A stretch of DNA of 37,430 bases from a virus, in IMG/VR virus record IMGVR_UViG_3300017613_000256, positions 1-37,430 of that record. One strand, 5' to 3'. Below the pieces are notes generated by a model. The model made no database searches. It had not been told where the DNA came from and saw only the letters and a program-made list of their open reading frames with translations. The position numbers and the translations under genes are program-made. Shown one piece after another: positions 7,869 to 33,109 of the stretch; within the stretch, counting starts at the first letter, position 1, and each line of letters begins with the position of its first letter.

Positions 7869-8317
7869 TTAATCACCGTCTTGATATACTTGCCAAAGAC
7901 CTTGAGCACTTCTGGTCTTATCTGTGACTCTGTTGGCAAGATTCTTCTCTCTGGAATGTGACCCAACCCCTCATGATGAATTTCTGAATAGGGCACACCA
8001 GATTGAACCTTGGCAAATTTAGAAGTCCATTGGTGTTTCCATCTGCTTCTCAACTGCCCTGTGTCCTGCAAGATCTTTGCACCAGCACCTTTCTTTCTTC
8101 TCTGTGCAATTGTTGCAGGAGCAAGGGCTTTCCAACCTCTGCCACTATGAGCCAATTTCCCCTGTTGCTGAAAGTTCTTTTGAATCCACCTGTCAAGCAC
8201 AACAACAATTTGGGCATTGAGCTTTCTCCTGTCTGAAATGCCACCTTTCATTTTTTTCAAACGTCTTTGGAGTGCTCTGACACCCTTGACACTCATGAAA
8301 ACAGGAACTGCCATCAA
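7865..8317 (-). CDS. Virion morphogenesis protein, Mu gpG-like
   Basis: A 150-residue basic protein with the signature of the phage virion morphogenesis (gpG-like) family: GKLAHSGRGWKALAPATIAQ near 65-85, then a run of basic residues, ILQDTGQLRSRW (about 96-107), then VPYSEIHHEGLGHIPERRILP (about 119-139). The family acts at the head-tail interface or in tail completion. Start choice: the double Met at the 5-prime end sits at a 4-base overlap with the upstream DUF1320 gene. No deviation from family length is apparent. Confidence 0.8.
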   Translation of the reverse strand: MMAVPVFMSVKGVRALQRRLKKMKGGISDRRKLNAQIVVVLDRWIQKNFQQQGKLAHSGRGWKALAPATIAQRRKKGAGAKILQDTGQLRSRWKHQWTSKFAKVQSGVPYSEIHHEGLGHIPERRILPTESQIRPEVLKVFGKYIKTVIK

Positions 8318-8772
8318 CTTCTCTCACTTTCAAGCTCATCAATCAGGGATGAATCAACTGCTGTGTAAGGGCTTTCTGCATCAAGCATAGAATGGACAGG
8401 GTGAAAATCCATTAGTGGTGACCAAATAACCTGATCAGCACCAGATGGGATAATTGTTTCAGACCCTGTGAAAATATACTCTTTGCCCTCTTTTAAATCC
8501 TCAATTCTGCCAATTATAGCATCATGGATCTTGACTGCTTTGTCTGGATCTCTTGTGAGCATTGCCCTGTAATATGTGAGCTCAATTGTGAGATCTTTGA
8601 TTGTTGGATATGCAACAGGGAATGGCACATCAAAATGGCTTGCAAGTCTGCTGTTGAGCTCCACCTCTGCATAGTGAATCAGGTCACTTGAAACCTCAAT
8701 TTCAGTTTTACCCCAAGATTTGATGACTGCATATCTGGTTGTCACTTCTTTGAATGTGGCATAAGTTGTCAT
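8314..8772 (-). CDS. Head-tail connector, DUF1320-like (Mu gp36 class)
   Basis: A 152-residue protein beginning TTYATFKEVTTRYAVIKSW with helices SSDLIHYAEVELNSRLAS and IKDLTIELTYYRAMLT. This is the pattern of DUF1320 adaptor proteins, a DNA-packaging connector fold that docks below the portal. The C-terminal 50 residues (after GSETIIPSG) are less typical. It is followed by the gpG- and gp37-like genes, giving the Mu-like order 36-G-37. A CATAGGAGTTATC site precedes the ATG. Confidence 0.75.
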   Translation of the reverse strand: MTTYATFKEVTTRYAVIKSWGKTEIEVSSDLIHYAEVELNSRLASHFDVPFPVAYPTIKDLTIELTYYRAMLTRDPDKAVKIHDAIIGRIEDLKEGKEYIFTGSETIIPSGADQVIWSPLMDFHPVHSMLDAESPYTAVDSSLIDELESERS

Positions 8773-9089: not shown

Positions 9090-9262
9090 TAGACCACCTC
9101 CAAATCAATTACAGAGTCTATATTTAAAATTGGGTTTATATGTGAATCTAAACTCAATAAAGGTTCAATATTTGAATCAAGAGCAATCTGCACATTTATG
9201 TGTGAGTCAAGCTCAATGATTGTGCTTATGTATGAGTCAAGGTGCAATTCATCTATTGCCAT
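9089..9262 (-). CDS. Decapeptide-repeat protein (xLDSxIxxxx repeats)
   Basis: 57 residues made almost entirely of five 10-residue repeats with LDS at fixed positions: LDSYISTIIE, LDSHINVQIA, LDSNIEPLLS, LDSHINPILN, IDSVIDLEVV. The spacing is exact. Such regular short repeats usually fold as stacked beta-structure or a fibre. The chosen ATG has no ribosome site and lies 10 bases inside the upstream gene, whose last residues carry the same repeat in another frame. It may be made by re-initiation or as a frameshifted tail of the upstream protein. Length and frame arrangement are odd enough that sequencing error is also possible. Confidence 0.55.
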   Translation of the reverse strand: MAIDELHLDSYISTIIELDSHINVQIALDSNIEPLLSLDSHINPILNIDSVIDLEVV

Positions 9263-10296
9263 AGTATTGAATCCAAACTTAATAAAGGGTTGATGTATGA
9301 GCTCAACCTCAAAACCTCTGCTCTTGGTTCTGTGTAAACAAAATGACCCATGACCCCAATTTGTTGAACTGCGTTTTGCTTCCAATATTCATAAACTTGT
9401 TGATCAGTCAAATTCACAAGCACATGGAGAGTTGTGGTTGGAATAAATAAAATTGTTGGTGCAGAACCCTCATCATTTCTTGCCCATCCCTGAAAGCCCG
9501 GTCCTGATGTATAAGTGTTCCTCAACCTTAAAAGTGCAATTTCTGCATCAGGGTCTGTGTCACCTGTCAGATCATCATCTGTCCATGCACCAAGCACAGG
9601 TGCACTTCTGATTGGTGGATCAACATGGGCTGTCCAATCCCTCTTGAAATATCCTATTTCATAAAACCAAGATTGAAAAACAGGGCTTTTTCCTCCTGAC
9701 TTTGATGGATAAAATTCATATCTGTCCTCACTATCAACCCCAACAATTCCAAATGTGCTGTTTCTTGCAATATTATTAGGATGCCAATTGTTTGTGCTCC
9801 CAAAGTTCCTGTATCCCCAATCCCCTGCATTATCCCATTCAATCCAGAGGAGAGCTCCAACAGCATTTCCAGCATTTGCTCCCAATATTCCAGTAATATC
9901 TCTTGTTACCCATTGATTGCCAAGCCCTGTAAATGCTTGCTCTGCATCAGCATTTGCAATGAAAGCATCACCTCCAAATTCTGCATGAATATAAAATGTG
10001 TTGCTTGCATCTATGGAAAAGAGCTCAACTTCATTTGAAGCATTAAGGGCAACAGGCACTTGTCTGGTCATATCACCAAGCAACTTTGCCTTTGTTCTTG
10101 TGTCTGAAATACCACTCCCAACAGGTCTGACAGCATTCACCTTGCTGTTGGCAGATGTATTTTTGATCTGAATGACAACTGCTTTTGGATCATCATGGTT
10201 CAAGAAAGGTGTCAGGTCAATTGTTTCCCATGTCTGATTTTTGAGCATCCCTGTGATTTCAACAAGCTCATTATTTGCCAGAATGGTTTTTGACAT
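9253..10296 (-). CDS. Beta-rich virion surface or fibre-like protein ending in LDS repeats
   Basis: 347 residues, mostly strand and turn: Asn, Gly, Thr, Trp and Tyr are frequent and there are no long helices. It begins MSKTILANNELVEITGMLKN, has Trp-rich loops at about 160-185 (WIEWDNAGDWGYRNFG) and ends RLSSYINPLLSLDSILWQ, which is one and a half copies of the decapeptide repeat that continues in the next, out-of-frame gene. It starts inside the acyl carrier protein gene with a 26-base overlap. It could be a head fibre or decoration, or an acceptor for the modifying enzymes encoded upstream. No database family was recognised. Confidence 0.5.
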   Translation of the reverse strand: MSKTILANNELVEITGMLKNQTWETIDLTPFLNHDDPKAVVIQIKNTSANSKVNAVRPVGSGISDTRTKAKLLGDMTRQVPVALNASNEVELFSIDASNTFYIHAEFGGDAFIANADAEQAFTGLGNQWVTRDITGILGANAGNAVGALLWIEWDNAGDWGYRNFGSTNNWHPNNIARNSTFGIVGVDSEDRYEFYPSKSGGKSPVFQSWFYEIGYFKRDWTAHVDPPIRSAPVLGAWTDDDLTGDTDPDAEIALLRLRNTYTSGPGFQGWARNDEGSAPTILFIPTTTLHVLVNLTDQQVYEYWKQNAVQQIGVMGHFVYTEPRAEVLRLSSYINPLLSLDSILWQ

Positions 10297-10519
10297 GGCT
10301 CACAATATCCTCAATGGTGTCAATCGTCTTTACAAGCTCAACAACCTCCTCCTCTGTTCCAACAATATTGAACTCATTTGCCACACCAACAATCACCATC
10401 AACAATCCAAGACTGTCAATTCCAATATCTTCAAACCTTGACTCTGGCTTGAAATACTCAAAATCCTTTTCCAGAACCTTGGCAATTATTTCACAGACTA
10501 TCTCAAGCAGATCTTTCAT
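10271..10519 (-). CDS. Acyl carrier protein
   Basis: The start chosen gives 82 residues, the normal ACP length. The central motif EDIGIDSLGLLMVIV contains the DSL tripeptide whose Ser receives the 4'-phosphopantetheine arm, at about residue 37. Helix 1 (LLEIVCEIIAKVLE), helix 2 after DSL and a C-terminal helix (TIEDIVSHVKNH) follow the four-helix ACP plan, and the protein is acidic. It would carry an acyl or amino-acyl group as a thioester. It shares an operon with a FabG-like reductase and a glycosyltransferase fusion; no ketosynthase, acyltransferase or PPTase is visible, so a host holo-ACP synthase would have to activate it. Confidence 0.85.
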   Translation of the reverse strand: MKDLLEIVCEIIAKVLEKDFEYFKPESRFEDIGIDSLGLLMVIVGVANEFNIVGTEEEVVELVKTIDTIEDIVSHVKNHSGK

Positions 10520-10730
10520 GAATCTTTTTCCCAACTTCCAAATTCTTCTTGAGGTTATACACCCCAAAAACAGACCTTGCCCTTTCCAAAACTGTGTCTG
10601 CTTCTTTTGATGCCCTCTCAAGATGTGTAATGGCTTTGATTGCAATGAACACATGGGCAAACTGATCTTTCTCACTCATTGCCCTGAAATCATTTAATGA
10701 TATGTTACTCCCCAAGTCCTCCTGTGCCAT
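10503..10730 (-). CDS. Small helical protein of unknown function
   Basis: 75 residues starting MAQEDLGSNISLNDF after an excellent GGTGGAGGG site. The rest is one or two long amphipathic helices (FAHVFIAIKAITHLERASKEAD; TVLERARSVFGVYNLKKN). It overlaps the C-terminus of the upstream 222-residue gene by 26 bases and the ACP by 17 bases. No family was recognised. Tight overlap with ACP suggests the two may work as partners, but this is inference. Confidence 0.55.
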   Translation of the reverse strand: MAQEDLGSNISLNDFRAMSEKDQFAHVFIAIKAITHLERASKEADTVLERARSVFGVYNLKKNLEVGKKIHERSA

Positions 10731-11373
10731 CCCTCCACCTTTCAAATTGTGCCCTCTCCCTTGCTGTCACTTCAATGTCCAGATAAGGCAGGTCAAAGGC
10801 TTCTGCTTCTGCATCCAATTCAACCCATGACCCATCTCTGATATTCCAATCTCTTTTCAATGTTGGAACATGCTTCTGGTTGTAAAAATCAATGAGCTCA
10901 AAAAACACCCTCAATGTCTGGATTGCAGAGAGCTCATTTTCCTTTGGGCAGAGGGTCATGTTGTATGGTGATCTTAACCTGTCAGGAAATATCTGCCTTT
11001 CAATCTTCAATGACTTCCAAGAGAAATGCTCCCTGTCTTTCTTTGGCAAAAGCTCTGCTCCCAAACCCAACTCAACCATCTTAAAATCATACCAGCTTAT
11101 ACCTTTGCCAATTGCCAGACCCCTTTCCCAAATGTAATCAGTTATATTAATTTTTTTCAGATAGTAATTATCTTTTGCAAGCCCATAAAGATTCTTTGCT
11201 TCATGGAGAATCTTTTTGAATATGTCAAGATCACCATCTTTCAAATGTTTGCTTGCAAGATATTTGTCATAAAAAATTATGGCTTGGGCTTGAAAATCAT
11301 CATTTGAAATGATGCCTGTTTTGTATTCTTTCCACTTATTATCCAGAGCCTTTGCATATTCAGCCTTGTTCAT
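10705..11373 (-). CDS. Unknown 222-residue protein of the ACP/reductase cassette
   Basis: Starts with ATG after GGAGATACAGG and overlaps the reductase stop by 4 bases. The N-terminal half is charged and helical (AKALDNKWKEYKTG; FKKILHEAKNLYGLAKDNYYLKK). The C-terminal half has a TLCPKENELSAIQTLRVFFELIDFYN segment and an acidic end. No nucleotide-binding, membrane or catalytic motif was identified. It could be a scaffold or an enzyme of a family not recognised here. Its fixed place between reductase and ACP suggests a shared pathway. Confidence 0.55.
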   Translation of the reverse strand: MNKAEYAKALDNKWKEYKTGIISNDDFQAQAIIFYDKYLASKHLKDGDLDIFKKILHEAKNLYGLAKDNYYLKKINITDYIWERGLAIGKGISWYDFKMVELGLGAELLPKKDREHFSWKSLKIERQIFPDRLRSPYNMTLCPKENELSAIQTLRVFFELIDFYNQKHVPTLKRDWNIRDGSWVELDAEAEAFDLPYLDIEVTARERAQFERWRDGTGGLGE

Positions 11374-12044
11374 CCTGTATCTCCACCAAGACCACCATCA
11401 ATCCTGATAATATCACCTGTGATATATAGGGATTTATCAGATGCCAGAAAATAAACCATTTCTGCAACATCAGATGGCTTTCCTGCCTTGTTCATGGGCA
11501 CAAAGCACTTGATCCTTTCTTGGCTTGCTGTCAGATCCAGCTTGTCCTTTGTCATGTCAGTTTCTATCAGACCCGGGGCAACAGCATTGACTCTTATATT
11601 AAGCCTTGCAAGTTCTCTTGAGAGTGCCCTTGTAAAGCCCAACAGCCCTGCTTTTGATGCACAATAGTTGGCTTGACCCACCATGCCCATGATGGCGGCT
11701 GTTGATGAAATATTGATGATGCTCCCTCCTGCTTTCATCATGGAGAACAGGACAGCCTTTGTCATGTTGAAAGCACCATTGAGATTAATGTCAATGACAC
11801 TATGCCATTCTGCTGGTGTCATTAATAAAAATGGCTTGTTTGCTGTCACTCCTGCATTGTTCACCAAGCAATTGATTGCTCCATATTTTTCAATTGTTTC
11901 CTTTGCAACACTCTTGCACATCTCAAAATCTCTCACATCTTCTTTGCTTGATGTGATCCTGACATTCCAGCCATTGCTTTTGAATGTTTCAGCACATGCT
12001 TTCCCTATTCCCCTGTTGCCACCTGTAATGATCACAGTTTTCAA
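11370..12044 (-). CDS. Short-chain dehydrogenase/reductase, FabG-like
   Basis: A 224-residue classical SDR. The N-terminal TGGNRGIG (residues about 7-14) is the dinucleotide-binding turn, NNAG is at about 64-67, the ISS motif near 116 supplies the catalytic Ser region, and YCASK at about 129-133 holds the Tyr-x-x-x-Lys pair. PGLIETDM and the final TGDIIRIDGG are typical of 3-oxoacyl-ACP reductases. It would reduce a keto group with NADPH; with the ACP two genes downstream an ACP-bound substrate is plausible. A sugar or other alcohol substrate cannot be excluded. It overlaps both neighbours by 4 bases. At 224 residues it is slightly shorter than bacterial FabG. Confidence 0.85.
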   Translation of the reverse strand: MKTVIITGGNRGIGKACAETFKSNGWNVRITSSKEDVRDFEMCKSVAKETIEKYGAINCLVNNAGVTANKPFLLMTPAEWHSVIDINLNGAFNMTKAVLFSMMKAGGSIINISSTAAIMGMVGQANYCASKAGLLGFTRALSRELARLNIRVNAVAPGLIETDMTKDKLDLTASQERIKCFVPMNKAGKPSDVAEMVYFLASDKSLYITGDIIRIDGGLGGDTG

Positions 12045-14881
12045 AAGTATTTCTCTCCATAAATCCTTGTGGTTTCTTCTGTCAGGTGATCCATCAAGCC
12101 CTTTATGTCCTCCCTGCTTGCAAACATGCCCACCATTGGCTGTTTTGCAATTGAGCTCTTGTGCCCATTGGTCTGTGCTTTCAAGTCAACTGAAAACTCA
12201 ATGCCACCTCCAAGCACATTGACTGCTTCTGAATAATAGTGCAATGACTCTGAAATGAATCTTGAGTTGCCCTCCTCAAGCAATTCCCTCCACAGATTTA
12301 TAATGGTTTGGGCATACTTCTGCACATCAACTGTGATCAGTCCACCATTTGATTCAAGGGTGTATTTCACAAGATGAGCCAGATCCCTCAACCAGAGAAA
12401 CCTGCCAAGTTTCCTGTCAGGGTGTTCTTTCCTGTCTTTCTGCATGAGTGGAAAGTTCCTCTCAAACCTTTTTCTCCTGATGGTTTCTGTTGCATATCCT
12501 GTGTGCATGATGGCAATGTCCTGAATGATGATGATCTTTCCACACCCCTCATTGTATGTCGTTTCAGGGTGCTCATGAATCATGCCATAAAACTTGACTC
12601 CCCTGTGATTTCTGAACAGCCTGACAGGATAATCTGTTTTGAATAATGCAGGTGGGTCAACCCCATAATGGTGCTGTTTGACAGCATATCCATTATAGCA
12701 GTTGGATCTTAAATATTTTGGGAGGTTCTCAACCTGCTCAAGTGTTTCATCAGAATCAATCCACAGAATCCAATCCATCTTGGCTTTTGCAATGGTGTAA
12801 TTCCTTGCAACAGCAAACCCAACTTTGAGAGGTGATGGGATGCTGAATGTGTGAGCTCCAAATTGCTCACACACACTCTTGGTTTCATCTGTGGTGGTTT
12901 CATCAATTCCCACAATGATTTCATCAGCAACCTTGCCAACTCCCTTGAGTGTTTTCCCAATTGTTAGTTCTGAATCTTTCGCAATGATGCACACAGAAAG
13001 GGTTTCCTGTGGTGCTTGAGATCTCAACTTTCTTTCATAGTCAATTTGATCAATGTCCTTTTCAGAGTTTTTGAATGTCACAAAGAAGTGACCAAGACCA
13101 TCCCTGTGAGGTAATGCCAAGAGCTTGTATTCTTTTTGACTGCCAAACAGGTCAGAGAGATCCTGCCTTTCAAGGTGGTGAATGTGAGCCCTCCAACCCT
13201 TGTGCTCATCATATCCAATTGCTTCCCAAGCACCATAAGGAGTTGTTATGAGCATGACACCATCAGGTGCAAGATACTCTTTCAACTGCCTGACAAGATC
13301 TGCTGGATCTGGAACATGCTCAAGCACCTCTGCAATGATGATCATGTCAACTTTTTGGGTGAGCTCAAACTCTCCAACTGTGCTGTGAATAAACAGGTTG
13401 TCAACCAACTCATGATCTTCTTTATATTTCAAAGCCCATTCTTTTGCTGTCTGAATGTTGCTCTCATCAATATCAACCCCAAAATATCTTATATCAGGAA
13501 ATCGTTTCATCAGGTTCATGACATAATGACCATGAGCACAACCATAATCAAGGATTGAGTTGGGCTTGAACCCATCAACAAACAAGGCAGTCTGTTCAAA
13601 TCTTGGCTGTCCTGTCAGATCCTCCTCACCATAAATGACACCCCTGTTTTTTTCATATTCGTAATATTTTTGATAATGCTCCTCATAAGCACCATCATAC
13701 ATGAAGTGATAGTTTTTCCAAAGTTGCTCCTTGGCTTGCTCCTTGATGCAATAAACATCAGAGAAGTGCTCAAGGTGCTTAAACAGCCTTGTTTGATCCT
13801 GTGACTTCTCCTTGAGGATCTTTTTAAAAAGCCCATCCCATTGAAGTGCCACACTCTCCCATGACTGATTCTTTTTGAGGGCTTTGTGGTGCAGGTTCTG
13901 CCATTTGGAGGGATCTGCAAGGATCTGTTTCACAGTCTTGGTGAACAGTTTTTTGTCCACCTCACCATCTTTCAATGGCAACAGGACAGAGCCAGAATCC
14001 TTGCATGTTTCTGGAAGTGCCGCCTGTTCAAATGAAATGAATGGTGTGCCACCAGCATTTGCTTCCAGCACCATGATGCAACTTGTGTCCTCAAAGGTGG
14101 TGGGATAAACATATAACTCACACCTTGCCAGCAGTTCATAAAGTTTATGTTTGCCCAATGAGCCCATGTTGGTCACATTTGGGAGTTCTTCACACCTTGC
14201 CCACAGGTAATCATAAAAGTCTTTCATGTGCCCTGTGGTGTTCTGGTAACTGCACACATATAAATGGCAGTCTGGCAGTTCCTCCATGATGCTGTTTTCA
14301 CCCACCAACTCATTCAGACCCCTCTCTGGTCTGCCAGCAAAGCACAGAGATCCTTTCTCCCTTGAATTCTTGTCAATGTCATTGAAAGCATCATAGTCAA
14401 CACCATTCCATGTTGAAACAATGAAATCTTTGGGCACATCATAAATGTCTGCAACCTGATTCTTGTGAAACTCTGAAACTGTCAAGATCCTGTCAATGTT
14501 GATCAGGTGGGTCTGGACAATCTTTGAGTTTCTCAACAATGCAAGGTCATGCAACCACCACAGTTTCACCTTGGCATTTACAGGGTTGAGAAAGCCCATT
14601 GGATGCCTTTGAATAATCACCACATCATAAGGCACTTGCATCACAAAATGAAATGCATCACCCAAGAGATATTGCTTGGTTGCTTTGCCATGATATTCAT
14701 ATAAAACACCATCCCATGAACCCCTGTCCTTTGAGTTGGTAAACACTATGACACTATGACCCAACTTGGAAAGCTCTCTTGCCACATAATATGCTGATGA
14801 TTCAGATCCTCCAAGGCTTGCACCATTAGGGATTGACTCACCATTGAAAGGCATGCCTGTTGCATAAATAGCAATGTGCAT
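12041..14881 (-). CDS. Three-domain glycan enzyme: GT4 glycosyltransferase, class I methyltransferase, GT2 glycosyltransferase
   Basis: 946 residues. Domain 1 (about 1-360) is a GT4/GT-B glycosyltransferase: GGSESSAYYVARELSKLGH near 28, TVSEFHKNQV near 137, FAGRPERGL near 177, and an E-x7-E-like FEDTSCIMVLEANAGGTP near 265. Domain 2 (about 400-600) is a SAM methyltransferase with ILDYGCAHGHYV near 441 and IIAEVLEHVPDP near 515. Domain 3 (about 633-900) is a GT2/GT-A transferase with SVCIIAKDSELTIGKTL, GIDETTTDET, and the DxD metal motif in WIDSDET near 710. Together they could build and methylate a short glycan. The gene sits beside capsid genes, so virion or host-surface glycans are both possible targets. 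A GGGGAGAAAAT site precedes the ATG. Confidence 0.85.
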   Translation of the reverse strand: MHIAIYATGMPFNGESIPNGASLGGSESSAYYVARELSKLGHSVIVFTNSKDRGSWDGVLYEYHGKATKQYLLGDAFHFVMQVPYDVVIIQRHPMGFLNPVNAKVKLWWLHDLALLRNSKIVQTHLINIDRILTVSEFHKNQVADIYDVPKDFIVSTWNGVDYDAFNDIDKNSREKGSLCFAGRPERGLNELVGENSIMEELPDCHLYVCSYQNTTGHMKDFYDYLWARCEELPNVTNMGSLGKHKLYELLARCELYVYPTTFEDTSCIMVLEANAGGTPFISFEQAALPETCKDSGSVLLPLKDGEVDKKLFTKTVKQILADPSKWQNLHHKALKKNQSWESVALQWDGLFKKILKEKSQDQTRLFKHLEHFSDVYCIKEQAKEQLWKNYHFMYDGAYEEHYQKYYEYEKNRGVIYGEEDLTGQPRFEQTALFVDGFKPNSILDYGCAHGHYVMNLMKRFPDIRYFGVDIDESNIQTAKEWALKYKEDHELVDNLFIHSTVGEFELTQKVDMIIIAEVLEHVPDPADLVRQLKEYLAPDGVMLITTPYGAWEAIGYDEHKGWRAHIHHLERQDLSDLFGSQKEYKLLALPHRDGLGHFFVTFKNSEKDIDQIDYERKLRSQAPQETLSVCIIAKDSELTIGKTLKGVGKVADEIIVGIDETTTDETKSVCEQFGAHTFSIPSPLKVGFAVARNYTIAKAKMDWILWIDSDETLEQVENLPKYLRSNCYNGYAVKQHHYGVDPPALFKTDYPVRLFRNHRGVKFYGMIHEHPETTYNEGCGKIIIIQDIAIMHTGYATETIRRKRFERNFPLMQKDRKEHPDRKLGRFLWLRDLAHLVKYTLESNGGLITVDVQKYAQTIINLWRELLEEGNSRFISESLHYYSEAVNVLGGGIEFSVDLKAQTNGHKSSIAKQPMVGMFASREDIKGLMDHLTEETTRIYGEKYF

Positions 14882-14895
14882 ATTTTCTCCCCTTT

Positions 14896-15048
14896 TTATT
14901 TCGCAGGTTTTGTCATTCTTTCAGCAGATGTTTCTTTCTTATTCTCTGCCTTTTTCTTTTTTGGTTTGGGTGGTGTTTCACCCCTCCTTATCAGATCCTC
15001 CTTGGTGGGCTTAATCTTGCCCTCATTGATCAGATCATCTCTTAACAT
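14896..15048 (-). CDS. Small Lys-rich protein
   Basis: 50 residues from an ATG with an AAAGGAGAAACC site; a longer reading from 15081 has no site. The sequence starts MLRDDLINEGKIKPTKEDLIRRG and ends in a Lys/Glu-rich tail with PPKPKKKK. Short basic proteins of this kind often follow capsid genes and may contact DNA or the shell. No family was recognised. Confidence 0.6.
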   Translation of the reverse strand: MLRDDLINEGKIKPTKEDLIRRGETPPKPKKKKAENKKETSAERMTKPAK

Positions 15049-15108
15049 GGTTTCTCCTTTTGAAAGGGAGGGCTTTGACACCCTCCCTGTCTGTTAAAGG
15101 GTTTCAGA

Positions 15109-16071
15109 TTAAACAGAGGTGACATTGGTGATCAGGAATGAGAGAGGTGCTGATGTGACTTTCTCATCCTGATAGTAACCAATTTCAACCTCCTCTGACT
15201 TTTTCTTGCTGTCAAAGGGATGCCTTTCAACACCCATGTTTGGCAGACCCGGCTTGCTCCACCTGAATGAATACATGAATGATGGCTCATCAATGCTTGG
15301 TGCAGGTGGTGCATAGTAGGCAAGCACATTGTCAAGCCACAATGGGCTCAATGATGCACTTTGACCCTCTGGTGCTGAATTGTAATAAGCGGCACCAACC
15401 AAGAACTGATCAACTTCAAAGATTGCCTTGACCTGCTCCCTTGATGCATATCTTGGCTGTCCTTGACCAGAATCACCATAGAGGATTGCAATCACATCTG
15501 CATGTCTCCTAAAGTGCCTCCATGCAAGCTCTCCCATGATAAGCCTGTTGGGTCTGTACCCTGTCAGATCCTGCACATTGTCCAAGGCTGTCTGAACATC
15601 TGCAAGTGGGGTGCTGTTCCCTGTGGCATGATCCATCCAATCTGATATGACTGTTGAATAAGATCCCACATTTGAGCCTGATGTAACCTGCAAGCAGACT
15701 CTGGATTCCCAAGCAATTGCAACCTTGCCCTTGAGGAATCTTGCCTTGCCATCCCTCAATTCCTTGATAAATCCAGCATCCATGTTTTCCCTGTCCTCAA
15801 GGGTGAGCCCTGTTTTCAAAGCATAGTTTTTCGCAAAATATGCTTCTGAACTCACATCTTGGGAGATCAGGTTTGCTTCTGTGCCCGGGGCTCTCTTATC
15901 ATCCTCAACCCTCAAGGCATCTGCCTGACTCCAGATGGGATAAATATCACTCTGTTTGCCAACAGAAACAATTGGTGCAATCAAGTCAGCGATCATTCCC
16001 ATAGGTCTGTAACTCATTGCAACATTGCTCAAGTGTTGGTCAATATGTAAATCTCTTCCGGTTGCTCCCAT
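15109..16071 (-). CDS. Major capsid protein
   Basis: 320 residues after the strongest ribosome site of the window (AGGAGGTGATC), as expected for the most abundant virion protein. The N-terminal DQHLSNVAMSYRPMGMIAD followed by LIAPIVSVGKQSD..YPIW is characteristic of a group of HK97-fold capsid proteins associated with Mu-like head modules. The centre has a NRLIMGELAWRHFRRH segment near 175, and the C-terminal part includes YYAPPAPSIDEPSF and EVEIGYYQDE. It follows the protease and decoration genes in the order protease - decoration - capsid. Confidence 0.85.
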   Translation of the reverse strand: MGATGRDLHIDQHLSNVAMSYRPMGMIADLIAPIVSVGKQSDIYPIWSQADALRVEDDKRAPGTEANLISQDVSSEAYFAKNYALKTGLTLEDRENMDAGFIKELRDGKARFLKGKVAIAWESRVCLQVTSGSNVGSYSTVISDWMDHATGNSTPLADVQTALDNVQDLTGYRPNRLIMGELAWRHFRRHADVIAILYGDSGQGQPRYASREQVKAIFEVDQFLVGAAYYNSAPEGQSASLSPLWLDNVLAYYAPPAPSIDEPSFMYSFRWSKPGLPNMGVERHPFDSKKKSEEVEIGYYQDEKVTSAPLSFLITNVTSV

Positions 16072-16084
16072 GTTAGATCACCTC

Positions 16085-16465
16085 CTATCCTATAAAATCA
16101 CTCGTATTGGCATAGAGTGGGTTTGTAAAATCAAGTAAGCCTGTTCCAATTGATCCACTTGTGACAGCGGCAACTGCCCTGCCAACAATGTAGTCACCAG
16201 AGCCAGCAGTTGAAAGGAAACCAGAGGTTGCAACAGTCATTCTTGCACCTATGGCAACAGCACCACCAGCCCTGAACTTCATGATCCCTGTGAAAGCAAT
16301 TGTGGCATGCTCATTGGTTTTGGGTTTGTTCTGCAAAATCCCAATGGCTTCTGAACCATTATTTGCAACCTTGCCATCATCAAGGGCAACAGCCAGATAT
16401 TGATGAGTGTCAAGATCTTCCTTTGCCTGTACTGTGAAACTTTTAAACCAATTTGCAAATGACAT
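16085..16465 (-). CDS. Capsid decoration/stabilising protein, DUF2190-like
   Basis: A 126-residue Gly/Ala-rich beta protein. The arrangement DLDTHQYLAVALDDGKVANN, EAIGILQNKPKTNEHATIAFTG, GAVAIGARMTVATSGFLS, GDYIVGRAVAAVTSG is the typical pattern of DUF2190-type proteins, small trimeric proteins that sit on the capsid lattice. GGGAGGTGAAAAGTA precedes the start. It lies directly between protease and capsid genes, and its start overlaps the protease stop by one base. Confidence 0.75.
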   Translation of the reverse strand: MSFANWFKSFTVQAKEDLDTHQYLAVALDDGKVANNGSEAIGILQNKPKTNEHATIAFTGIMKFRAGGAVAIGARMTVATSGFLSTAGSGDYIVGRAVAAVTSGSIGTGLLDFTNPLYANTSDFIG

Positions 16466-17706
16466 TACTTTTCACCTCCCTCATCTTTGGCATAGGCTTC
16501 TGCCAATTTAGGATCTTTTTGCAAAACAATGTTTGAAGCATCCTCATAGGTCACATCAGGATGCTCCTGCATATATTCCTTGGTTTTTTGTGAAAGCAAT
16601 TCAGCAGGATCTGTCACATCAAAGGTTTTCTTTTTGTCATGAGCCTTTTCATCTGTGACAAGGATCTTGTCCACCTTTTCAAAGATCTTTTTGATCATCT
16701 CAAAGTCAAAGATGTGACCATCATCCTTTGAGTAAGTTCTTTTCTCAAGGTCTGTGACAATCAGATCCCTCTGATAAGGCAACATCTTTCCTGCCTTAAC
16801 CATTTCCTCACAATGTGCTGTAATGCCCTCAACCTCTGCTCTCTGCTTTGCTTCAACTGCTTCCTGCTCCTGCTTGGCAAGTCTATCAGCATATTGTTTT
16901 TTTTCAGCCATCTCCTGCTCTGCTTTCTTTTCAGCATCTTCCTTTTCCTGTTCCAGCTTTGCAAGTTTGGCTTTGTATTCTTGTTCATTCATTTCAGTAA
17001 ATTCCTTTTTGTCTGTGTTGATAATTTTTCCTGCTTCATCTGTTTCAAAAGCATAAGCCTTTAGGCTGTCAAACGAACCCTTGGAGGTGGATTGACTCAA
17101 AAATGCTTCAAGATCTTCAAGATTGTCAACAGCAGGAATGTCTGCACCCAATAGTGCCACACCAGCAAGAACCTTGGAAAAGGTTTCACCAGCATGCTTG
17201 TAATTCCAATAAACTTCTGAACTTATCCTCTTATATCTGCCTGATTGGATTGCCCTCATGATCACATCTGGAACTTGTGTCAATGTTGCAATCAATTTTG
17301 TGCCCACTTTCTTCAAAGACTTAACCCACCCAATTGCAGGTTGACCATCCTTGATTTGCTTTTCATTATGACCCAACTTAACAGGTGGCTTGATTGATTC
17401 CTTGAGAGCTTCAAAGTTTGCCACCATGCTCTCAAGATCCTTGTCTGTGAACTTGTCCTTGTTCCACACACCAACACTCATCACCTCTGCATCAAACTCA
17501 TGGGTCTTTGCCAACTTCACCCACTTATCATCCTGCTTTTTCCAGCCAGCATTGGTGACTGCACCCCAAGCAATCTTGTTGGCTTTTTCCTCATCCTGAT
17601 CTTTCTCATGGGATGAGTTGAAAGCATTTCTGAATATTGTCTGTGCTTCTGCTGGAAGTGCCTTTTTGACTGCATCTGGCAAATCATTATTTGTTTTGTA
17701 TGGCAT
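16465..17706 (-). CDS. Mu gpI-like head maturation protease with N-terminal ChaB domain and scaffold-like tail
   Basis: 413 residues in three parts. Residues 1-62 match a ChaB domain (LPDAVKKALPAEAQTIFRNAFN followed by EEKANKIAWGAVTNAGWKK). Residues about 68-200 resemble the gpI protease of Mu-like phages: VMSVGVWNKDKFT, VKLGHNEKQ, GQPAIGWVKSL, GRYKRISSEVYWNY and AGVALLGADIPAV. Residues about 235-300 are a Glu/Lys/Gln coiled coil, as in scaffolding parts that are cut away during head maturation. A ChaB module on the protease is uncommon in reference Mu-like phages but known in environmental ones. GAGGGAGTTTC precedes the start. Confidence 0.75.
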   Translation of the reverse strand: MPYKTNNDLPDAVKKALPAEAQTIFRNAFNSSHEKDQDEEKANKIAWGAVTNAGWKKQDDKWVKLAKTHEFDAEVMSVGVWNKDKFTDKDLESMVANFEALKESIKPPVKLGHNEKQIKDGQPAIGWVKSLKKVGTKLIATLTQVPDVIMRAIQSGRYKRISSEVYWNYKHAGETFSKVLAGVALLGADIPAVDNLEDLEAFLSQSTSKGSFDSLKAYAFETDEAGKIINTDKKEFTEMNEQEYKAKLAKLEQEKEDAEKKAEQEMAEKKQYADRLAKQEQEAVEAKQRAEVEGITAHCEEMVKAGKMLPYQRDLIVTDLEKRTYSKDDGHIFDFEMIKKIFEKVDKILVTDEKAHDKKKTFDVTDPAELLSQKTKEYMQEHPDVTYEDASNIVLQKDPKLAEAYAKDEGGEK

Positions 17707-17825: not shown

Positions 17826-18533
17826 TCAAGCAACCTTGATCAACCTGCCAACCTCTGATATGTGGTGACAGGTTTCACACAGTTGAAATGGTTGCACCTG
17901 CTTCTGTGTGAGATCCTCTGTGACATGGGAGAAAACACCTGTTGCAAATGCATCAATGCAACAGTTGGTCACATCTCCATTTGACATGACCATCACCTGC
18001 CCTTTGTTAAGCCAAGGACACTCCATGCCTTTTGTTTTGTAATAATCAGGGTGAAACCAATCCACCTGCCCTGCCCAATTGTTTGGGCTGGTCATAAAGT
18101 CCATTGAAATCTGTCCATCAATTCCAACCTGTCTGAAATACCTGATTGTCTGTGCAACAGATCTGGCATTGTGACCTGTTATGTCAATTGATGAGATCCC
18201 TGCTTTCTTTAGTTTGACAGCAAGCTCAAATGTCATGTTGTTGCCATTTGTGTTCAGGTGGAGCTTTTGCCTGATTGGTAAATGCTTTCTTGCATATTCA
18301 ACCATCTCTGCAAGGTCTGGATGCAATGTGGGCTCACCCACACCAAAGAGATTCAACTCCCTCTGTGTGCCCTGCTTGCTGAAATGGATCACCCACTTGA
18401 TTGATTCATGAAATGTTTTCCAATCCATCCAGCCTGTTTCCCTGTGCTTGCCCTGTATTGGAGCAGGGCAATATTCGCACCTGTTGTCACAGATGGATGA
18501 GGTTTCAATTGTGTTGATTGTGGCTATTCTCAT
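17826..18533 (-). CDS. Radical SAM enzyme with SPASM-like C-terminus (copy 1)
   Basis: 235 residues. The CDNRCEYC motif at residues 15-22 is CxxxCxxC, the cluster-binding signature of radical SAM enzymes. NLFGVGEPTLHPDL near 63-76 is the GGE-like SAM motif, and LNTNGNNM follows. The C-terminus has a SPASM-like Cys set: MECPW, GDVTNCCIDAF and LCETCHH. Such proteins bind an auxiliary Fe-S cluster and modify peptides or sugars. At 235 residues it is a compact version. A second related copy lies 529 bases upstream. The ATG lies inside the last codons of the HTH gene (29-base overlap). Substrate unknown. Confidence 0.85.
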   Translation of the reverse strand: MRIATINTIETSSICDNRCEYCPAPIQGKHRETGWMDWKTFHESIKWVIHFSKQGTQRELNLFGVGEPTLHPDLAEMVEYARKHLPIRQKLHLNTNGNNMTFELAVKLKKAGISSIDITGHNARSVAQTIRYFRQVGIDGQISMDFMTSPNNWAGQVDWFHPDYYKTKGMECPWLNKGQVMVMSNGDVTNCCIDAFATGVFSHVTEDLTQKQVQPFQLCETCHHISEVGRLIKVA

Positions 18534-19062
18534 TTAATGTGAATCCTTTTTCTCTTGCTTTTTTATAAACAAATTTCTCTATTTTCGCAAATAATTCAAA
18601 GGTTGGATAAAACCCTCTTTCAAGTTGACTATATCTTGCTTGTGAAATGCCCATTTTTTCGCTCACATCAACCTGCCTTAAACCCAACACTACACGAAAC
18701 ACTTTAAGAAAGTTTCCTTTAAGTTTTCCCACCGATGCCTCATAGATAAGAGAATCAATGCCCTCTTGATAAGTGAGGGGTCTGTTTGATGTTAAAATAT
18801 CTATCCAATCAAAAGGTGGCTTTTTGATTTTTTTTATTCCTAAAGCTTTTAACCAAGCAAGACCATCCATTTTTTGTTTTACTTGTTTTACTTTTGGAAT
18901 TGGCTTTGATATTGAATTGAATCGCTGATAATCTTGCTCACAAGAAAAAATATAATCAATGCCATAGGTTTTTTCGTCTATCATTTCGTCATTAAGGTAT
19001 GAAGATGCAACATCATCTGAAAAATAATTATTGTTTGTTTTCATAAACTCAAAAACATCCAT
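18505..19062 (-). CDS. HTH (XRE/Cro-like) protein inserted between the two radical SAM genes
   Basis: 185 residues from MDVFEFMKTNNN; the ATG overlaps the upstream stop. The C-terminal third carries a helix-turn-helix: LKVFRVVLGLRQVDVSEKMG then ISQARYSQLERGFYPTFEL, like transcriptional regulators of the XRE family. The N-terminal part (DYIFSCEQDYQRFNSI; KPPFDWIDIL) is unfamiliar. It is more A/T-rich than its neighbours and has 7 CpG in 558 bases against about 2-3 per kb elsewhere, so it looks recently acquired. It might control the cassette or be an antitoxin-like remnant; no toxin gene is adjacent. Confidence 0.75.
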   Translation of the reverse strand: MDVFEFMKTNNNYFSDDVASSYLNDEMIDEKTYGIDYIFSCEQDYQRFNSISKPIPKVKQVKQKMDGLAWLKALGIKKIKKPPFDWIDILTSNRPLTYQEGIDSLIYEASVGKLKGNFLKVFRVVLGLRQVDVSEKMGISQARYSQLERGFYPTFELFAKIEKFVYKKAREKGFTLNENSHNQHN

Positions 19063-19781
19063 TAGGCAACCTCCCTCCCATTCAGGATGTATTCTGGAAT
19101 TGTTTGATGGCATGTTTCACAAAGCTCATAGGGCTTGATCTCTCTTTTAAGCAGATCATCATCAAACACATGACCAAACACACCCAAATTCCTGTAATCA
19201 TAACAGCAGGGAGTGACATTGCCCTCACTCTGAATATAACCTCTGCCATCAATAAGTGGGTCACATTGAATTTTCAGTTTCACATCAATGCTGTTTTCTG
19301 GCTCTAACTGTCCAGCCCAATTGTGAGAGTACAGGACAGCACCAAGATTGACAACACCCTTGAGCCCTGCATTGTGCATAATATAGGCAGACCTCCTCAC
19401 ATGGAATGGTGAATGGATGCTCAAGTCAATCTGGTCAATGCCTGAATCTTTCAGATCCTTTGCAAGCCCTCTGGTCATGTTGACTCCATTGGTGGAGAAG
19501 CAGACTCTGCGATCATCAACAACAGCCCTGACTCTTTTTATCCTTTCGATCAGATCAGGATCAAGGCAACTCTCTCCATTGCCATTAAGATTGATCTCCT
19601 GCTGTGTTCCCCTGTCACAGAGGATTTTCAGCCAATGCAATGACCTTTCAAACACAGAGTTTGTCATTATCCCTGCATCTCTATCTGGATGCTTCACCAA
19701 AAGCCTGTTGATGCAATATTTACATGCAAGATTGCAGACAGATGAAAGCTCAATTGTGGTTATGGTTTTAAGGGTTATCAT
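19062..19781 (-). CDS. Radical SAM enzyme with SPASM-like C-terminus (copy 2)
   Basis: 239 residues with CNLACKYC at residues 16-23 as the radical SAM cluster motif, NLNGNGESCLDPDL near 64-77, FSTNGVNM near 94-101, and a C-terminal SPASM-like set: IQCDP, GNVTPCCYDYRN and LCETCHQT. It shares the framework of the downstream copy (same Cys positions, the same -WAGQ- element near residue 155 and the same LCETCH end), so the two are paralogues. Together they may act in turn or as a pair on one substrate. It overlaps the zinc-ribbon gene by 4 bases. Confidence 0.85.
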   Translation of the reverse strand: MITLKTITTIELSSVCNLACKYCINRLLVKHPDRDAGIMTNSVFERSLHWLKILCDRGTQQEINLNGNGESCLDPDLIERIKRVRAVVDDRRVCFSTNGVNMTRGLAKDLKDSGIDQIDLSIHSPFHVRRSAYIMHNAGLKGVVNLGAVLYSHNWAGQLEPENSIDVKLKIQCDPLIDGRGYIQSEGNVTPCCYDYRNLGVFGHVFDDDLLKREIKPYELCETCHQTIPEYILNGREVA

Positions 19782-20155
19782 ATTGCTTCTTCCATGCTGA
19801 TATATCTATCAATTAAACTTAAATTTACAGATGATCTGCATTTTGTGCATAACAAACAAATATATTTCCAATCACCAAGTTTTCTAATTATATCAAATTC
19901 ATGATCATTGCATCTTGGACAATAAATTAAATCCATATTTGGCAATGCACCCCTCCCATCTTCACTTACCCCAAAATCATTGATAACAAAATGGATGCAT
20001 TTGCATGAGGATTTTATTTCTATATGATTTAAATCATCACAGGTTGATGCACATATCCATGTAATCTTTTCATGACATTTCCTACACTTAAATGTCATAA
20101 GCATCTTATCATCAACTTCTGTTCCTGCAAGCCTTCTCAAATCTTCAACTTTCAT
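19778..20155 (-). CDS. Zinc-ribbon protein of unknown function
   Basis: 125 residues with several CxxC knuckles: CRKCH near 24-28, CASTC near 35-39, CKC near 51, CPRC near 79-82 and CLLCTKC near 99-105. This is enough for two structural zinc sites in two similar halves. It begins MKVEDLRRLAGTEVDDKML. It overlaps the sulfotransferase-like gene by 4 bases. It might recruit the acceptor molecule or bind nucleic acid; no specific family is recognised. Confidence 0.6.
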   Translation of the reverse strand: MKVEDLRRLAGTEVDDKMLMTFKCRKCHEKITWICASTCDDLNHIEIKSSCKCIHFVINDFGVSEDGRGALPNMDLIYCPRCNDHEFDIIRKLGDWKYICLLCTKCRSSVNLSLIDRYISMEEAI

Positions 20156-20721
20156 ATCCTCTCCAAGTTAATTCCTGCCTGATCATAAGTGCTGTGTCCT
20201 GTGTTGTGTGTGCCTTTCATCATGTTCTTTTCATACCTCACACCCAAGAAAGCACAGATTCTCCTCAACTCAACTGCTGTCCTCAAGAGCAGATCCTCAA
20301 ATGACACTTGGATGATCCTGTCAGGGTGCTTCTCCCTGATCTGCCAATATAGGGATCTTGACCATTCCCAATTTTCCTTATAGATGCTCTCTTTCTTGCC
20401 TTTCCAATATCTTGAAAACCTCCTGATGAGCCACACCATCTTGAAGTGCTCTGCAAGGCACAAAATGTCTTTATCTGTCCAACCTCTTGATTTCAACTGC
20501 TCAAGAGGAACTTTGTTTGCCCATATCACTCCATTATCTTCAACCAGCTTTGCCAGAGCAATCCAATGCAGGATCTCATTGACTGCTGGCTGAACCCTGC
20601 CACTCTTGTTTTCCTCAAATTCAACATGCAGTTTTGAGTGGGCATTTAAAAGACCCCTCAACAATGATGTGCCACCACCACCATTGCCAATCAACATAAA
20701 GCGATTGAATGAACTGATCAT
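20152..20721 (-). CDS. Sulfotransferase-family protein
   Basis: 189 residues. The N-terminal FMLIGNGGGGTSLLRGLLNAH (residues 8-28) is the P-loop-like 5'-phosphosulfate-binding signature of sulfotransferases, in which GxxxGGTS..LL..LL..H is typical. Later IIQVSFEDLLLRTAVELRRIC (about 136-156) matches the region after the 3'-phosphate-binding site, followed by FLGVRYE. It would transfer sulfate from PAPS to a hydroxyl of a sugar, lipid or protein. It is short for the family (usually 250 or more), so the acceptor-binding part is reduced. It overlaps the portal gene stop by 4 bases. Its presence among virion genes suggests a structural or surface substrate. Confidence 0.7.
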   Translation of the reverse strand: MISSFNRFMLIGNGGGGTSLLRGLLNAHSKLHVEFEENKSGRVQPAVNEILHWIALAKLVEDNGVIWANKVPLEQLKSRGWTDKDILCLAEHFKMVWLIRRFSRYWKGKKESIYKENWEWSRSLYWQIREKHPDRIIQVSFEDLLLRTAVELRRICAFLGVRYEKNMMKGTHNTGHSTYDQAGINLERI

Positions 20722-31207: not shown

Positions 31208-31410
31208 TCTTTCCCCAAGTTTTTTATCAAAAAATCCATTTCACATGCAACAAGCAATGCCTGAATGGTCACATCTTTTTTCTGTAAATCCATTTTGTGA
31301 TTTTCCTGTCTTATAAATCCAACTGTCACAGCAGAGATGTTCAGCAGGAACACCACCCACAAAACAAACAGGACAACAAAATCAATTATATCCCTGACCT
31401 TGGTTTTCAT
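31204..31410 (-). CDS. Single-span membrane protein (68 residues)
   Basis: The start at 31410 is fixed by an ATGA overlap with the methyltransferase stop. After KTKVRD a helix of about 25 hydrophobic residues (IDFVVLFVLWVVFLLNISA) is followed by a charged soluble tail (RQENHKMDLQKKDVT) and a second amphipathic helix. The size and coupling to the next mini membrane gene suggest that they act together. Spanin-like proteins have similar size, but no lipobox or matching partner is evident. Confidence 0.6.
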   Translation of the reverse strand: MKTKVRDIIDFVVLFVLWVVFLLNISAVTVGFIRQENHKMDLQKKDVTIQALLVACEMDFLIKNLGKE

Positions 31411-32234
31411 TTTCTTTTCCATAGGGTTGGCTTGTTGTTCCAAGCATTTGTCTTGATCCTCATATAGTTATTATCCAGCAACACCTGATGAAATCGTTTT
31501 GTCATTTGTTTCTGGTGATAGGTTGAAACCCAACCAGCCTGATCAAAGAGTCTGTTTTTGTACCTATACCACTCAAAGTGCCCAACAGAATATGTGTTGA
31601 AAGAGTTTGCAATATAGAAATATGTTGGGTTCAGGCTGTTGATAATATCCTGCAAGTGATCAGTTGCAAATTGTATGTGCTCAAAATATTCAGAAGCAAA
31701 CACCAGATCAATGTCTTGCCTGATATGAGAAATGTCAGGAACAAGTTTGAAGTCAAACTGTGCACTCATTACAGCACAGAAAATATATTGCTTTGTGCCC
31801 TCAAGGTTTGTGGCAAACACCTTTGCCTTGTTAAAGATCTGCTTGAGGGTTGCTGTTGTATATCCAAGACCACAACCCAAATCCAAGATGCTCTTTGTGT
31901 CCATAAGGAGATCATAAATTCTTGCATTTTCATTCAGGGATTTTGGGTGGATGAGTGTTCTTAAATATCCTCTGCTGAACAGCACCCAACACACCCACAA
32001 GTCTGTGAAATAATATTCATCATCATAGATGGAATAGTCAGGGTTGTTCTGCTCAATCGAATCATACCACCTGACTTCCAGATCCACTTGATATTTTGAC
32101 ACACTCTTTTTGTCATAGTGAGCCCTTGCATCCTTGATCAACTGCCTTGCCTTATCAATGTCAATTGGATTGATTTCACTATATAACAACAGGAACTCCT
32201 CAAGTTGCTCACTTGGTCTTTTATTGCAGATCAT
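31407..32234 (-). CDS. Class I SAM-dependent methyltransferase
   Basis: 275 residues. KSILDLGCGLGYTTATLKQI near 116-135 is the SAM-binding motif I; VFATNLEG near 140 is the motif II strand; DLVFASEYFEHI near 176 and LNPTYFYIANSF near 202 are later motifs. The N-terminal 100 residues are helical and unfamiliar. No DPPY or PC motif is seen, which argues against a standard DNA N6- or C5-methyltransferase, so a sugar or small-molecule acceptor is more likely. It is coupled (ATGA) to the glycosyltransferase gene upstream, so it may methylate the sugar that enzyme adds. Confidence 0.75.
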   Translation of the reverse strand: MICNKRPSEQLEEFLLLYSEINPIDIDKARQLIKDARAHYDKKSVSKYQVDLEVRWYDSIEQNNPDYSIYDDEYYFTDLWVCWVLFSRGYLRTLIHPKSLNENARIYDLLMDTKSILDLGCGLGYTTATLKQIFNKAKVFATNLEGTKQYIFCAVMSAQFDFKLVPDISHIRQDIDLVFASEYFEHIQFATDHLQDIINSLNPTYFYIANSFNTYSVGHFEWYRYKNRLFDQAGWVSTYHQKQMTKRFHQVLLDNNYMRIKTNAWNNKPTLWKRK

Positions 32235-33109
32235 ATCACCTCCACCAGCTTCATCCCATAGTTGTTCACACCCTTTGGAATGACCAGATCCTTTTTTTTG
32301 ATTGGCTTGTTTCTTGCAAAGGGCTTATAATTGACATGATGATGCCACCTGCCAAACTTCCAAACCACCCTTGAAACATCTGGATGCATATCAAGCAGGA
32401 TCTGTGACTTTTTAAGTGTGCCCTCCTTGTCATAAAATTCTTGAGTGTTCCCTCCTTTCATTGTCTGTGTGGTTGCTTTCTCCTGAACGAAAGCATTGAA
32501 TTGAATTGTGCACCAGCCATCTTTCAACACCCTCAAAGAGAGATCTGTGTCCTCATTATATCTCCCTCTCCACCTGTAAGGAATATCATTCCTGATCAGC
32601 AAGCAGGAATAAATCCTTGTGTTGAAAATGAATGGTGGGATCTTGGTTTTTGCGATTGCAAAGAAATCATAATTGAGCCCTGTGATTGCCACATTCTCAT
32701 ATCTGTTTGTGAAGTCCTCTGCAATCTTGAAGATTGTTCCTGATGTAACCCTGTAATGATAATTTTTATTGAGTCTGCTGAAAGCAAAGATATTATCATC
32801 CAGCACCCAATGCCATTCAACACCCAACTCAATTGAATGATCCCAACAAAAGTTCCTTGCCGGACCCGGACCTGTGCTGTGATCCTCATCAATCTTTGTC
32901 ACAACATTATAATCTTTTTTATATCTCTCTGGCAGAATCAGGATCTTAATTGCACAACCTGCTGGATCAATCACATCTGCATATTTGTCATATTCCTGCT
33001 TTTCAACCACAAGATAATAAGGCACTTGCATTTTCTCAAATGCATTGCTTGTCAGTCTGGTTTCCCACCTCCCCTTTGAAACAATATAAACAGGGCTTTC
33101 AGGGTTCAT
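32231..33109 (-). CDS. TET-associated glycosyltransferase-like protein (TAGT family)
   Basis: 292 residues from MNPESPVYIVSKGRW; an AAGGAATACATTG site supports this ATG rather than the TTG just before it. The pattern VYIVSKGRWETRLTSNAFEKM, then GPGPARNFCWDHSIE, WHWVLDDNIFAFSRLN, YNEDTDLSLRVLKDGWCTIQFNAF (in pieces), TMKGGNTQEFY and WKFGRWHHHV matches the GT-A-type family described next to TET/JBP dioxygenases in phages (also in GREB1). DDN and NED are the likely nucleotide-sugar/metal and catalytic acids. Those enzymes are predicted to glycosylate hydroxymethylated bases in phage DNA. No TET or C5-methyltransferase lies in this window, so the substrate is inferred. Confidence 0.7.
   Translation of the reverse strand: MNPESPVYIVSKGRWETRLTSNAFEKMQVPYYLVVEKQEYDKYADVIDPAGCAIKILILPERYKKDYNVVTKIDEDHSTGPGPARNFCWDHSIELGVEWHWVLDDNIFAFSRLNKNYHYRVTSGTIFKIAEDFTNRYENVAITGLNYDFFAIAKTKIPPFIFNTRIYSCLLIRNDIPYRWRGRYNEDTDLSLRVLKDGWCTIQFNAFVQEKATTQTMKGGNTQEFYDKEGTLKKSQILLDMHPDVSRVVWKFGRWHHHVNYKPFARNKPIKKKDLVIPKGVNNYGMKLVEVI

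Follow-up and report, generated by a model that had tools for sequence, protein, structure and literature searches.

Five genes between the capsid and connector genes of a virus record

The IMG/VR virus record IMGVR_UViG_3300017613_000256, whose 37,430 bases form the window analysed here, carries a late operon on its minus strand that runs through terminase, portal, protease, cement, major capsid protein (MCP), a five-gene stretch, connectors, tail tube and tape measure. The five genes encode a large enzyme in which two glycosyltransferase domains (GT4 and GT2) flank an S-adenosylmethionine (SAM) methyltransferase domain (hereafter the fusion), a short-chain dehydrogenase/reductase (SDR), two orphan proteins (u222 and u80) and an acyl carrier protein (ACP). 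Their coordinates, domains and flanks agree with those given in a preliminary description of the locus. The stretch and its immediate surroundings, in the order of transcription, are:

15109–16071, minus strand: MCP (Phage_cap_E / phrog_1005), assigned by Pfam and PHROG
14896–15081, minus strand: 61-aa Lys/Pro-rich protein, between MCP and fusion
12041–14881, minus strand: fusion, GT4–SAM methyltransferase–GT2, 946 aa, ATG start, assigned by Pfam, NCBIfam, family alignment and AlphaFold2 (AF2)
11370–12044, minus strand: SDR, FabG-like, 224 aa, TTG start, assigned by Pfam, NCBIfam and PDB
10705–11373, minus strand: u222, orphan, 222 aa, ATG start
10503–10730, minus strand: u80, orphan small protein, 75 aa from an in-frame ATG or 80 aa from an upstream TTG
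10271–10519, minus strand: ACP with DSL phosphopantetheine serine, 82 aa, ATG start, assigned by Pfam, PDB ACPs and alignment
9253–10296, minus strand: 347-aa protein, candidate virion-surface protein, next gene after ACP
8314–8772: connector, flanking the five-gene stretch

The GT2 domain of the fusion is closest to protein and peptide glycosyltransferases

Pfam places a GT4-type GT-B pair (Glyco_transf_4 / Glycos_transf_1) at about residues 24–334 of the fusion, a SAM methyltransferase domain (Methyltransf_23/31) at about 437–579 and Glycos_transf_2 at 629–768. A first relative was found at 53% identity and many more were then found with alignments. Across a diverse set of 33 aligned members, the LGGSE motif, R184/E186/R187/G188, E518/E521/H522 and the DxD pair D709/D711 are invariant (33/33), and the SAM-site residues D445, G447 and G451 are conserved in at least 90%. 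The AF2 model of the fusion, computed with the family alignment as input, reached a mean pLDDT of 91 and a pTM of 0.89. Its N-terminal part matches the GT4 structures MshA, BshA and PimA, and PDB entries 7msk and 7msp, titled glycosin S-glycosyltransferases, are among the structural relatives; VIA-align of the whole fusion returned mostly GT4 structures, and families not listed by it may still match.

When solved structures were searched by sequence with the GT2 domain, GmaR (1.8e-18), ThuS (2e-12) and SunS (2.9e-9) were recovered, with the next protein at 0.003, and a profile search of the domain against GmaR gave 2.4e-32. GmaR is a flagellin N-acetylglucosamine (GlcNAc) transferase (PMC9638930). 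The likeness to GmaR, ThuS and SunS favours a protein acceptor, and the GmaR-like domain leads to a direct, testable prediction, namely a sugar on a structural protein.

The fusion gene keeps its place next to the capsid gene and diverges with it

Fetching loci with the MCP alone yielded 44 loci, several of them near-duplicates, of which 38 extend at least 1 kb past the MCP. A fusion homologue starts no more than 2.5 kb downstream of the MCP on the same strand in 37 of the 38; the exception (L041) has a truncated copy that starts 9.6 kb from the MCP. In the reverse direction, the set comprised 89 long fusion genes whose upstream sequence reaches 1.5 kb or more, with some contigs occurring twice. 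This MCP family precedes 61 of them and an SU10-type MCP precedes 11; for the other 17 neither MCP was detected upstream, although three of these (L016, L028 and L030) do have this MCP by tblastn. The distances between fusions follow those between MCPs with a Mantel r of 0.86 (n = 28), the corresponding values being 0.84 for the portal (n = 19), 0.82 for the tail tube (n = 18) and 0.74 for the protease (n = 33); capsid divergence is mirrored by the fusion as closely as by the portal.

The second capsid type was recognised by Pfam (SU10_MCP, PF17236) in L074 (4e-70) and L075 (2e-52), and the remaining SU10-type MCPs were called with a profile built from these two. A full-length fusion stands right behind the SU10-type capsid gene in L074 (6078–12225), L075 (8124–13087), L166, L167 and L179, and shorter versions are found near an SU10-type MCP in L078, L079, L080, L200, L202, L207 and L220. 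Of these 12 genes, 5 span about 870–960 of the 968 profile positions and 7 span 445–685, the shorter ones probably lacking a domain. The fixed position of the fusion beside two different capsid types is the surprise of this locus; the ACP–SDR pair is so far a single-genome extra.

MCP and fusion also occur together on five genome-derived contigs, from bins labelled Desulfobacterales, Deltaproteobacteria, Proteobacteria, Synechococcaceae and Zixibacteria, the hosts being given by the bin labels only. In the cultured phages with a distant MCP (28% identical), KPP23 and CRP-6, no glycosyltransferase is found among the annotated genes after the MCP, and the capsid–fusion linkage therefore seems to belong to an uncultured phage group.

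The 61-aa protein encoded between MCP and fusion has the look of a common type of small head protein. Most relatives likewise have a small Lys/Pro-rich protein between capsid and fusion (for example L002, 3295–3510, and L046). These proteins begin MLRDDxI..GxIKPT or MLT.., and by our own reading of the sequences some of them have a C-terminal SAP-like stretch.

The SDR–u222–u80–ACP cassette is found in one genome

Along fusion–SDR–u222–u80–ACP the genes overlap by 4, 4, 26 and 17 bases, and the ACP gene overlaps that of the 347-aa protein by 26. The preliminary description had taken this tight coupling to imply one pathway. However, overlaps of 1–4 bases recur across the operon, at the portal/sulfotransferase, Zn-ribbon, radical SAM, cement and connector junctions (20718/20721, 20152/20155, 19778/19781, 16465, 8314/8317 and 7865/7868), and therefore do not single out one pathway. 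Since the in-frame codon signature of u222, u80 and ACP is that of the core genes, all three look like real genes.

The SDR matches Pfam adh_short_C2 (9.6e-60). Classical SDRs are marked by a TGxxxGIG cofactor motif and YxxxK, and the phage protein has TGGNRGIG and YCASK at these places. It scores below the FabG equivalog TIGR01830 (247.7 versus 297.75 bits) and above the cutoff of the subfamily NF009466 (228.8 versus 222 bits). As had been described, the ACP is full length (82 aa) with an intact DSL serine: it matches PP-binding (PF00550, 5.3e-7) at 30.2 bits against a gathering cutoff of 20.8, and in an alignment with 17 bacterial ACPs the attachment serine stands intact in GIDSLG. The phage protein is 25–41% identical to these 17, which are 42–98% identical among themselves; it has a 4-residue insertion relative to them and falls below the AcpP equivalog TIGR00517 (32.1 versus 70.45 bits). 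The acidic helix II residues of ACPs contact the fatty-acid-synthase enzymes. They are kept in all 17 bacterial ACPs and lost in the phage protein (DSLDxVEL to DSLGLLMV), in which the helix II pattern DSLDxVEL...EEEF is absent (DSLGLLMVIVGVANEF). Judged by these sequence features, the phage ACP is not a housekeeping AcpP, and both ACP and SDR, which miss the AcpP and FabG equivalog cutoffs, look specialised. In 395 genomes, the ACP is best matched by AcpP-like proteins, whose genes almost all lie directly after a fabG-like gene.

For u222, neither Pfam nor NCBIfam nor PHROG gave a noteworthy family and no phage or IMG/VR relative was found, and 297 genomes gave one 43-residue match at E 0.004; its single-sequence AF2 model is poor (pLDDT 48.6). 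Likewise, u80 has no family in Pfam, PHROG or NCBIfam and no phage relative. When 1043 open reading frames (ORFs) were clustered, the SDR, u222, ACP and 347-aa genes grouped only with themselves, each cluster of two being the window paired with a piece of itself (L001), and profile searches of the phage-group relatives gave no match to any of the four proteins. The ACP is absent from 10/10 virus records searched whole and the SDR from 10/10 other virus records searched, while the bacterial genomes searched beside them (four per search) gave a weak ACP match in 3/4 and SDRs in 4/4. No match to the ACP was found in 50,697 phage records at E 0.01, nor in IMG/VR, and the ACP of Erythrobacter phage R6L does not align to it. 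No SDR relative in IMG/VR was confirmed. We did not use the 276 phage-collection records that matched the SDR, the top ones being unannotated and judged likely bacterial contamination; short unannotated records with FabG-like genes, such as Listeria phage LM 4-11-1 and Enterococcus phage Efs 1-1-1, may be contamination.

The five genes had been put forward as one pathway, a reading to be refuted if they did not travel together. The fusion core is present in the group, the cassette in no relative searched; the cassette genes do not travel with the fusion, and one travelling five-gene pathway is not supported. It is fair to call ACP genes rare among phages, although documented cases exist (PMC5463345, PMC8224337, PMC10152775, PMC11705849, PMC3220722, PMC7760394).

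Variable slots around the fusion

Further upstream in the operon, the window has the following genes:

20152–20721, minus strand: sulfotransferase-like protein (Pfam PF13469, 1e-8), in the slot between portal and protease
19062–19781, minus strand: radical SAM protein 1 (Pfam PF04055, 5.4e-12)
17826–18533, minus strand: radical SAM protein 2 (Pfam PF04055, 1.1e-13)

The portal–protease slot is variable, with one or two radical SAM genes in 12 of the 32 loci that have both flanking genes (window included). Among 63 proteins, taken mostly from ahead of the fusion, there are 20 radical SAM proteins, 5 sulfotransferases and 5 FkbM methyltransferases. At 17826–19781 of the window, a helix-turn-helix gene is flanked by the two radical SAM genes; such pairs are seen repeatedly in the portal–protease slot of relatives, in some cases with an FkbM methyltransferase between the two genes. 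Sulfotransferase-like genes occur in 7 loci of the phage group, at two different positions (window 20152–20721; L002 8495–9082).

The slot behind the fusion is also variable in content in the relatives, and surface-type proteins are frequent in it (Laminin_G_3, haemagglutinin repeat, BppU_N and beta-helix, one each among 55). In the window, the 347-aa protein occupies this slot, which holds fibre or beta-helix proteins in relatives; it had been suggested as a possible acceptor of the glycan, and no relative of it was found.

Elsewhere in the window, the head maturation protease (16465–17706) has an N-terminal ChaB domain (PF06150, 5.7e-14), and a small protein at 30712–31128 matches sigma-70 region 4 (PF04545, 3.4e-8) and is a possible late-gene regulator.

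A probable virion-protein glycosyltransferase and the rival explanations

The best explanation overall is a virion-protein glycosyltransferase fusion accompanied by an acyl tailoring cassette, a combination to which we give an even chance. The glycosyltransferase half is the firmer: the fusion is probably a dedicated virion-protein glycosyltransferase, since the capsid linkage, the co-divergence, the conserved catalytic positions and a GT2 domain nearest to flagellin and peptide glycosyltransferases make a virion protein the likely acceptor. The fusion would be produced late, from its place next to the capsid gene. Its GT2 domain, C-terminal and GmaR/SunS-like, would start the glycan by attaching a sugar to a side chain of a protein associated with the capsid, candidate targets being the MCP, the cement protein or the surface protein encoded just downstream. 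The N-terminal GT4 domain would then extend the glycan and the middle domain would methylate it. We count in favour of this explanation that the accessory genes near the fusion in relatives are of glycan- or protein-modifying types (radical SAM, sulfotransferase, FkbM methyltransferase) and that surface-type proteins lie behind it. A glycan route to the particle or the host surface had been suggested for the five genes together; what stands of this is an enzyme that, by its capsid adjacency, co-divergence and GT2 domain, probably acts on the particle; a single five-gene pathway is not supported.

The acylation half is tentative and, on balance, doubtful. The fusion core is common to a whole phage group, and in the present phage SDR–u222–u80–ACP would have been inserted directly behind it. 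By the likeliest route, the ACP would receive a short beta-ketoacyl group from the host, which the SDR would reduce to beta-hydroxyacyl-ACP, and the acyl group would be moved onto the glycan or its sugar precursor, possibly by u222. The loss of the acidic helix II in the ACP fits a specialised role of this kind. A precedent is the viosamine island of Pseudomonas syringae, described as encoding a 3-oxoacyl-ACP reductase (vioR), acp, a methyltransferase (vioM) and a glycosyltransferase for flagellin glycans among the genes vioR, acp, vioS, vioM, vioB and vioT; the modified sugar disappears when vioR is lost, and vioM supplies a methyl group (PMC3927599). The phage locus has the same combination of ACP, 3-oxoacyl reductase, methyltransferase and large glycosyltransferase, and by this analogy an acylated virion glycan is plausible.

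Several points weigh against this explanation. The GT4 domain resembles transferases for small molecules and polysaccharides, and the GT2 domain stays far below the SunS equivalog TIGR04195 (54.3 versus 350 bits). The cassette is known from one genome, so co-occurrence cannot support a joint pathway. Unlike the viosamine island, the phage record has no recognisable ketoacyl synthase III (vioS), acyltransferase (vioB) or aminotransferase (vioA). The ORFs scanned contain no ketosynthase, as had been stated before, and no acyltransferase or amino-sugar enzyme, with u222 assigned to no family and in a record that may be incomplete: the records of relatives reach 42–45 kb and more, and the ends of the present one share no repeat longer than 10 bases.

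For the cassette, the main rival is that SDR and ACP form an ordinary fatty-acid auxiliary pair (fabG–acpP) that raises or diverts host lipid synthesis and is unrelated to the fusion. The nearest bacterial ACPs found are housekeeping AcpP proteins encoded directly after fabG, in the same order; Roseobacter prophages are reported with fabG–acpP–fabF (PMC8224337), and the ACP of Alteromonas phage R22Y has been read as a fatty-acid auxiliary metabolic gene (PMC11705849). The divergence of the phage ACP (25–41% identity) and the lost acidic helix, the equivalog scores (32 of 70 bits for AcpP, 248 of 298 for FabG), the two orphan genes between SDR and ACP and the late position inside the virion operon speak against such a pair, which we regard as rather unlikely. 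The cassette genes could also be unrelated passengers (morons) behind the fusion, with the ACP a host-protein ligand. This would suit a cassette seen in a single genome within a slot of variable content, and ACP peptides are reported from mass spectrometry of other phages' particles (PMC10892097, PMC7760394). Yet SDR and ACP are functionally matched, and because its codon signature equals that of the core genes the cassette is not a recent alien insert; we think passengers an unlikely account.

Other readings assign fusion and cassette a different substrate. They might act on the cell surface of the host, changing its O-antigen, capsule, flagellin or S-layer and so, for example, blocking superinfection; temperate phages are known for host glycan modification (PMC12619734). 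The fold of the GT4 domain, which resembles WaaG/PglA-type enzymes, would fit this. Seroconversion genes, however, are normally variable accessory genes, whereas the fusion is fixed beside the capsid gene, co-diverges with it and also adjoins an unrelated capsid family, and a host-surface role appears distinctly unlikely to us. Finally, the enzymes might serve hypermodification of the phage DNA. A TET-associated glycosyltransferase (TAGT; PF20691, 1.9e-43; phrog_842, hydroxymethylcytosine glucosyltransferase) followed by a methyltransferase, at 31407–33112 in the replication half of the window, does suggest DNA hypermodification, and an ‘acyl carrier protein reductase’ is listed among the DNA-modification genes of SP-15 (PMC5977210). 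We rejected DNA hypermodification as the main explanation and consider it very improbable for the fusion and cassette, given that the TAGT pair lies 17 kb away, that the fusion belongs to the late operon and that its GT2 domain is of protein/peptide type; moreover, the ORFs scanned include no recognisable gene for base oxidation or for a hydroxymethylase.

Returning to the fusion as a virion-protein glycosyltransferase, a glycan enzyme that keeps its place beside the capsid gene as firmly as the portal, in many uncultured phages and with two capsid types, would point to glycosylation of the coat as a fundamental property of some phage groups and not an oddity. A bolder idea, which we hold to be speculative and unlikely as it stands, is that the capsid-linked fusion defines a widespread uncultured group across two capsid families, in which swappable tailoring genes (sulfotransferase, radical SAM pairs, methyltransferases and, here, the ACP–SDR pair) upgrade individual phages. 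If true, there would be virions with sulfated, methylated or acylated glycans and, as far as the literature searched shows, a first acyl-carrier-dependent decoration of a virus particle. If the acyl role holds, the ACP–SDR add-on would be a case of a phage borrowing fatty-acid-type chemistry to alter its coat.

Comparison with known systems

No paper on this fusion or on an ACP-linked virion glycan was recognised in the open-licence PMC literature searched. Like Rhodobacteraceae prophages, the present phage carries fabG- and acpP-type genes (PMC8224337); unlike their fabG–acpP(–fabF) arrangement, it has no fabF, a divergent ACP, two intervening orphan genes and a location in the late operon. 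The closest solved relatives of the GT2 domain are the Listeria flagellin O-GlcNAc transferase GmaR and the glycocin S-glycosyltransferases SunS and ThuS. Unlike the fusion, GmaR is described as a single glycosyltransferase domain with tetratricopeptide-repeat and antirepressor parts, in PMC9638930, and it is not fused to GT4 and a methyltransferase.

Virion glycosylation in phages is already known, and we propose the present case as a variant of it. Most documented cases of glycosylated phage particle proteins come from mycobacteriophages. Virion glycosylation in these phages is credited to Freeman et al. 2023 (as cited in PMC12691614, PMC12619734 and PMC11256854), and glycans are reported on capsid and tail-tube subunits of phages (PMC12619734). 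Set side by side by description, not by sequence, the mycobacteriophage system and ours both use phage-encoded glycosyltransferases, and the ACP and SDR are present only here. In Maravista the glycosyltransferase genes are placed near the 3′ end of the genome (PMC11256854), whereas here a single fusion is fixed beside the capsid gene.

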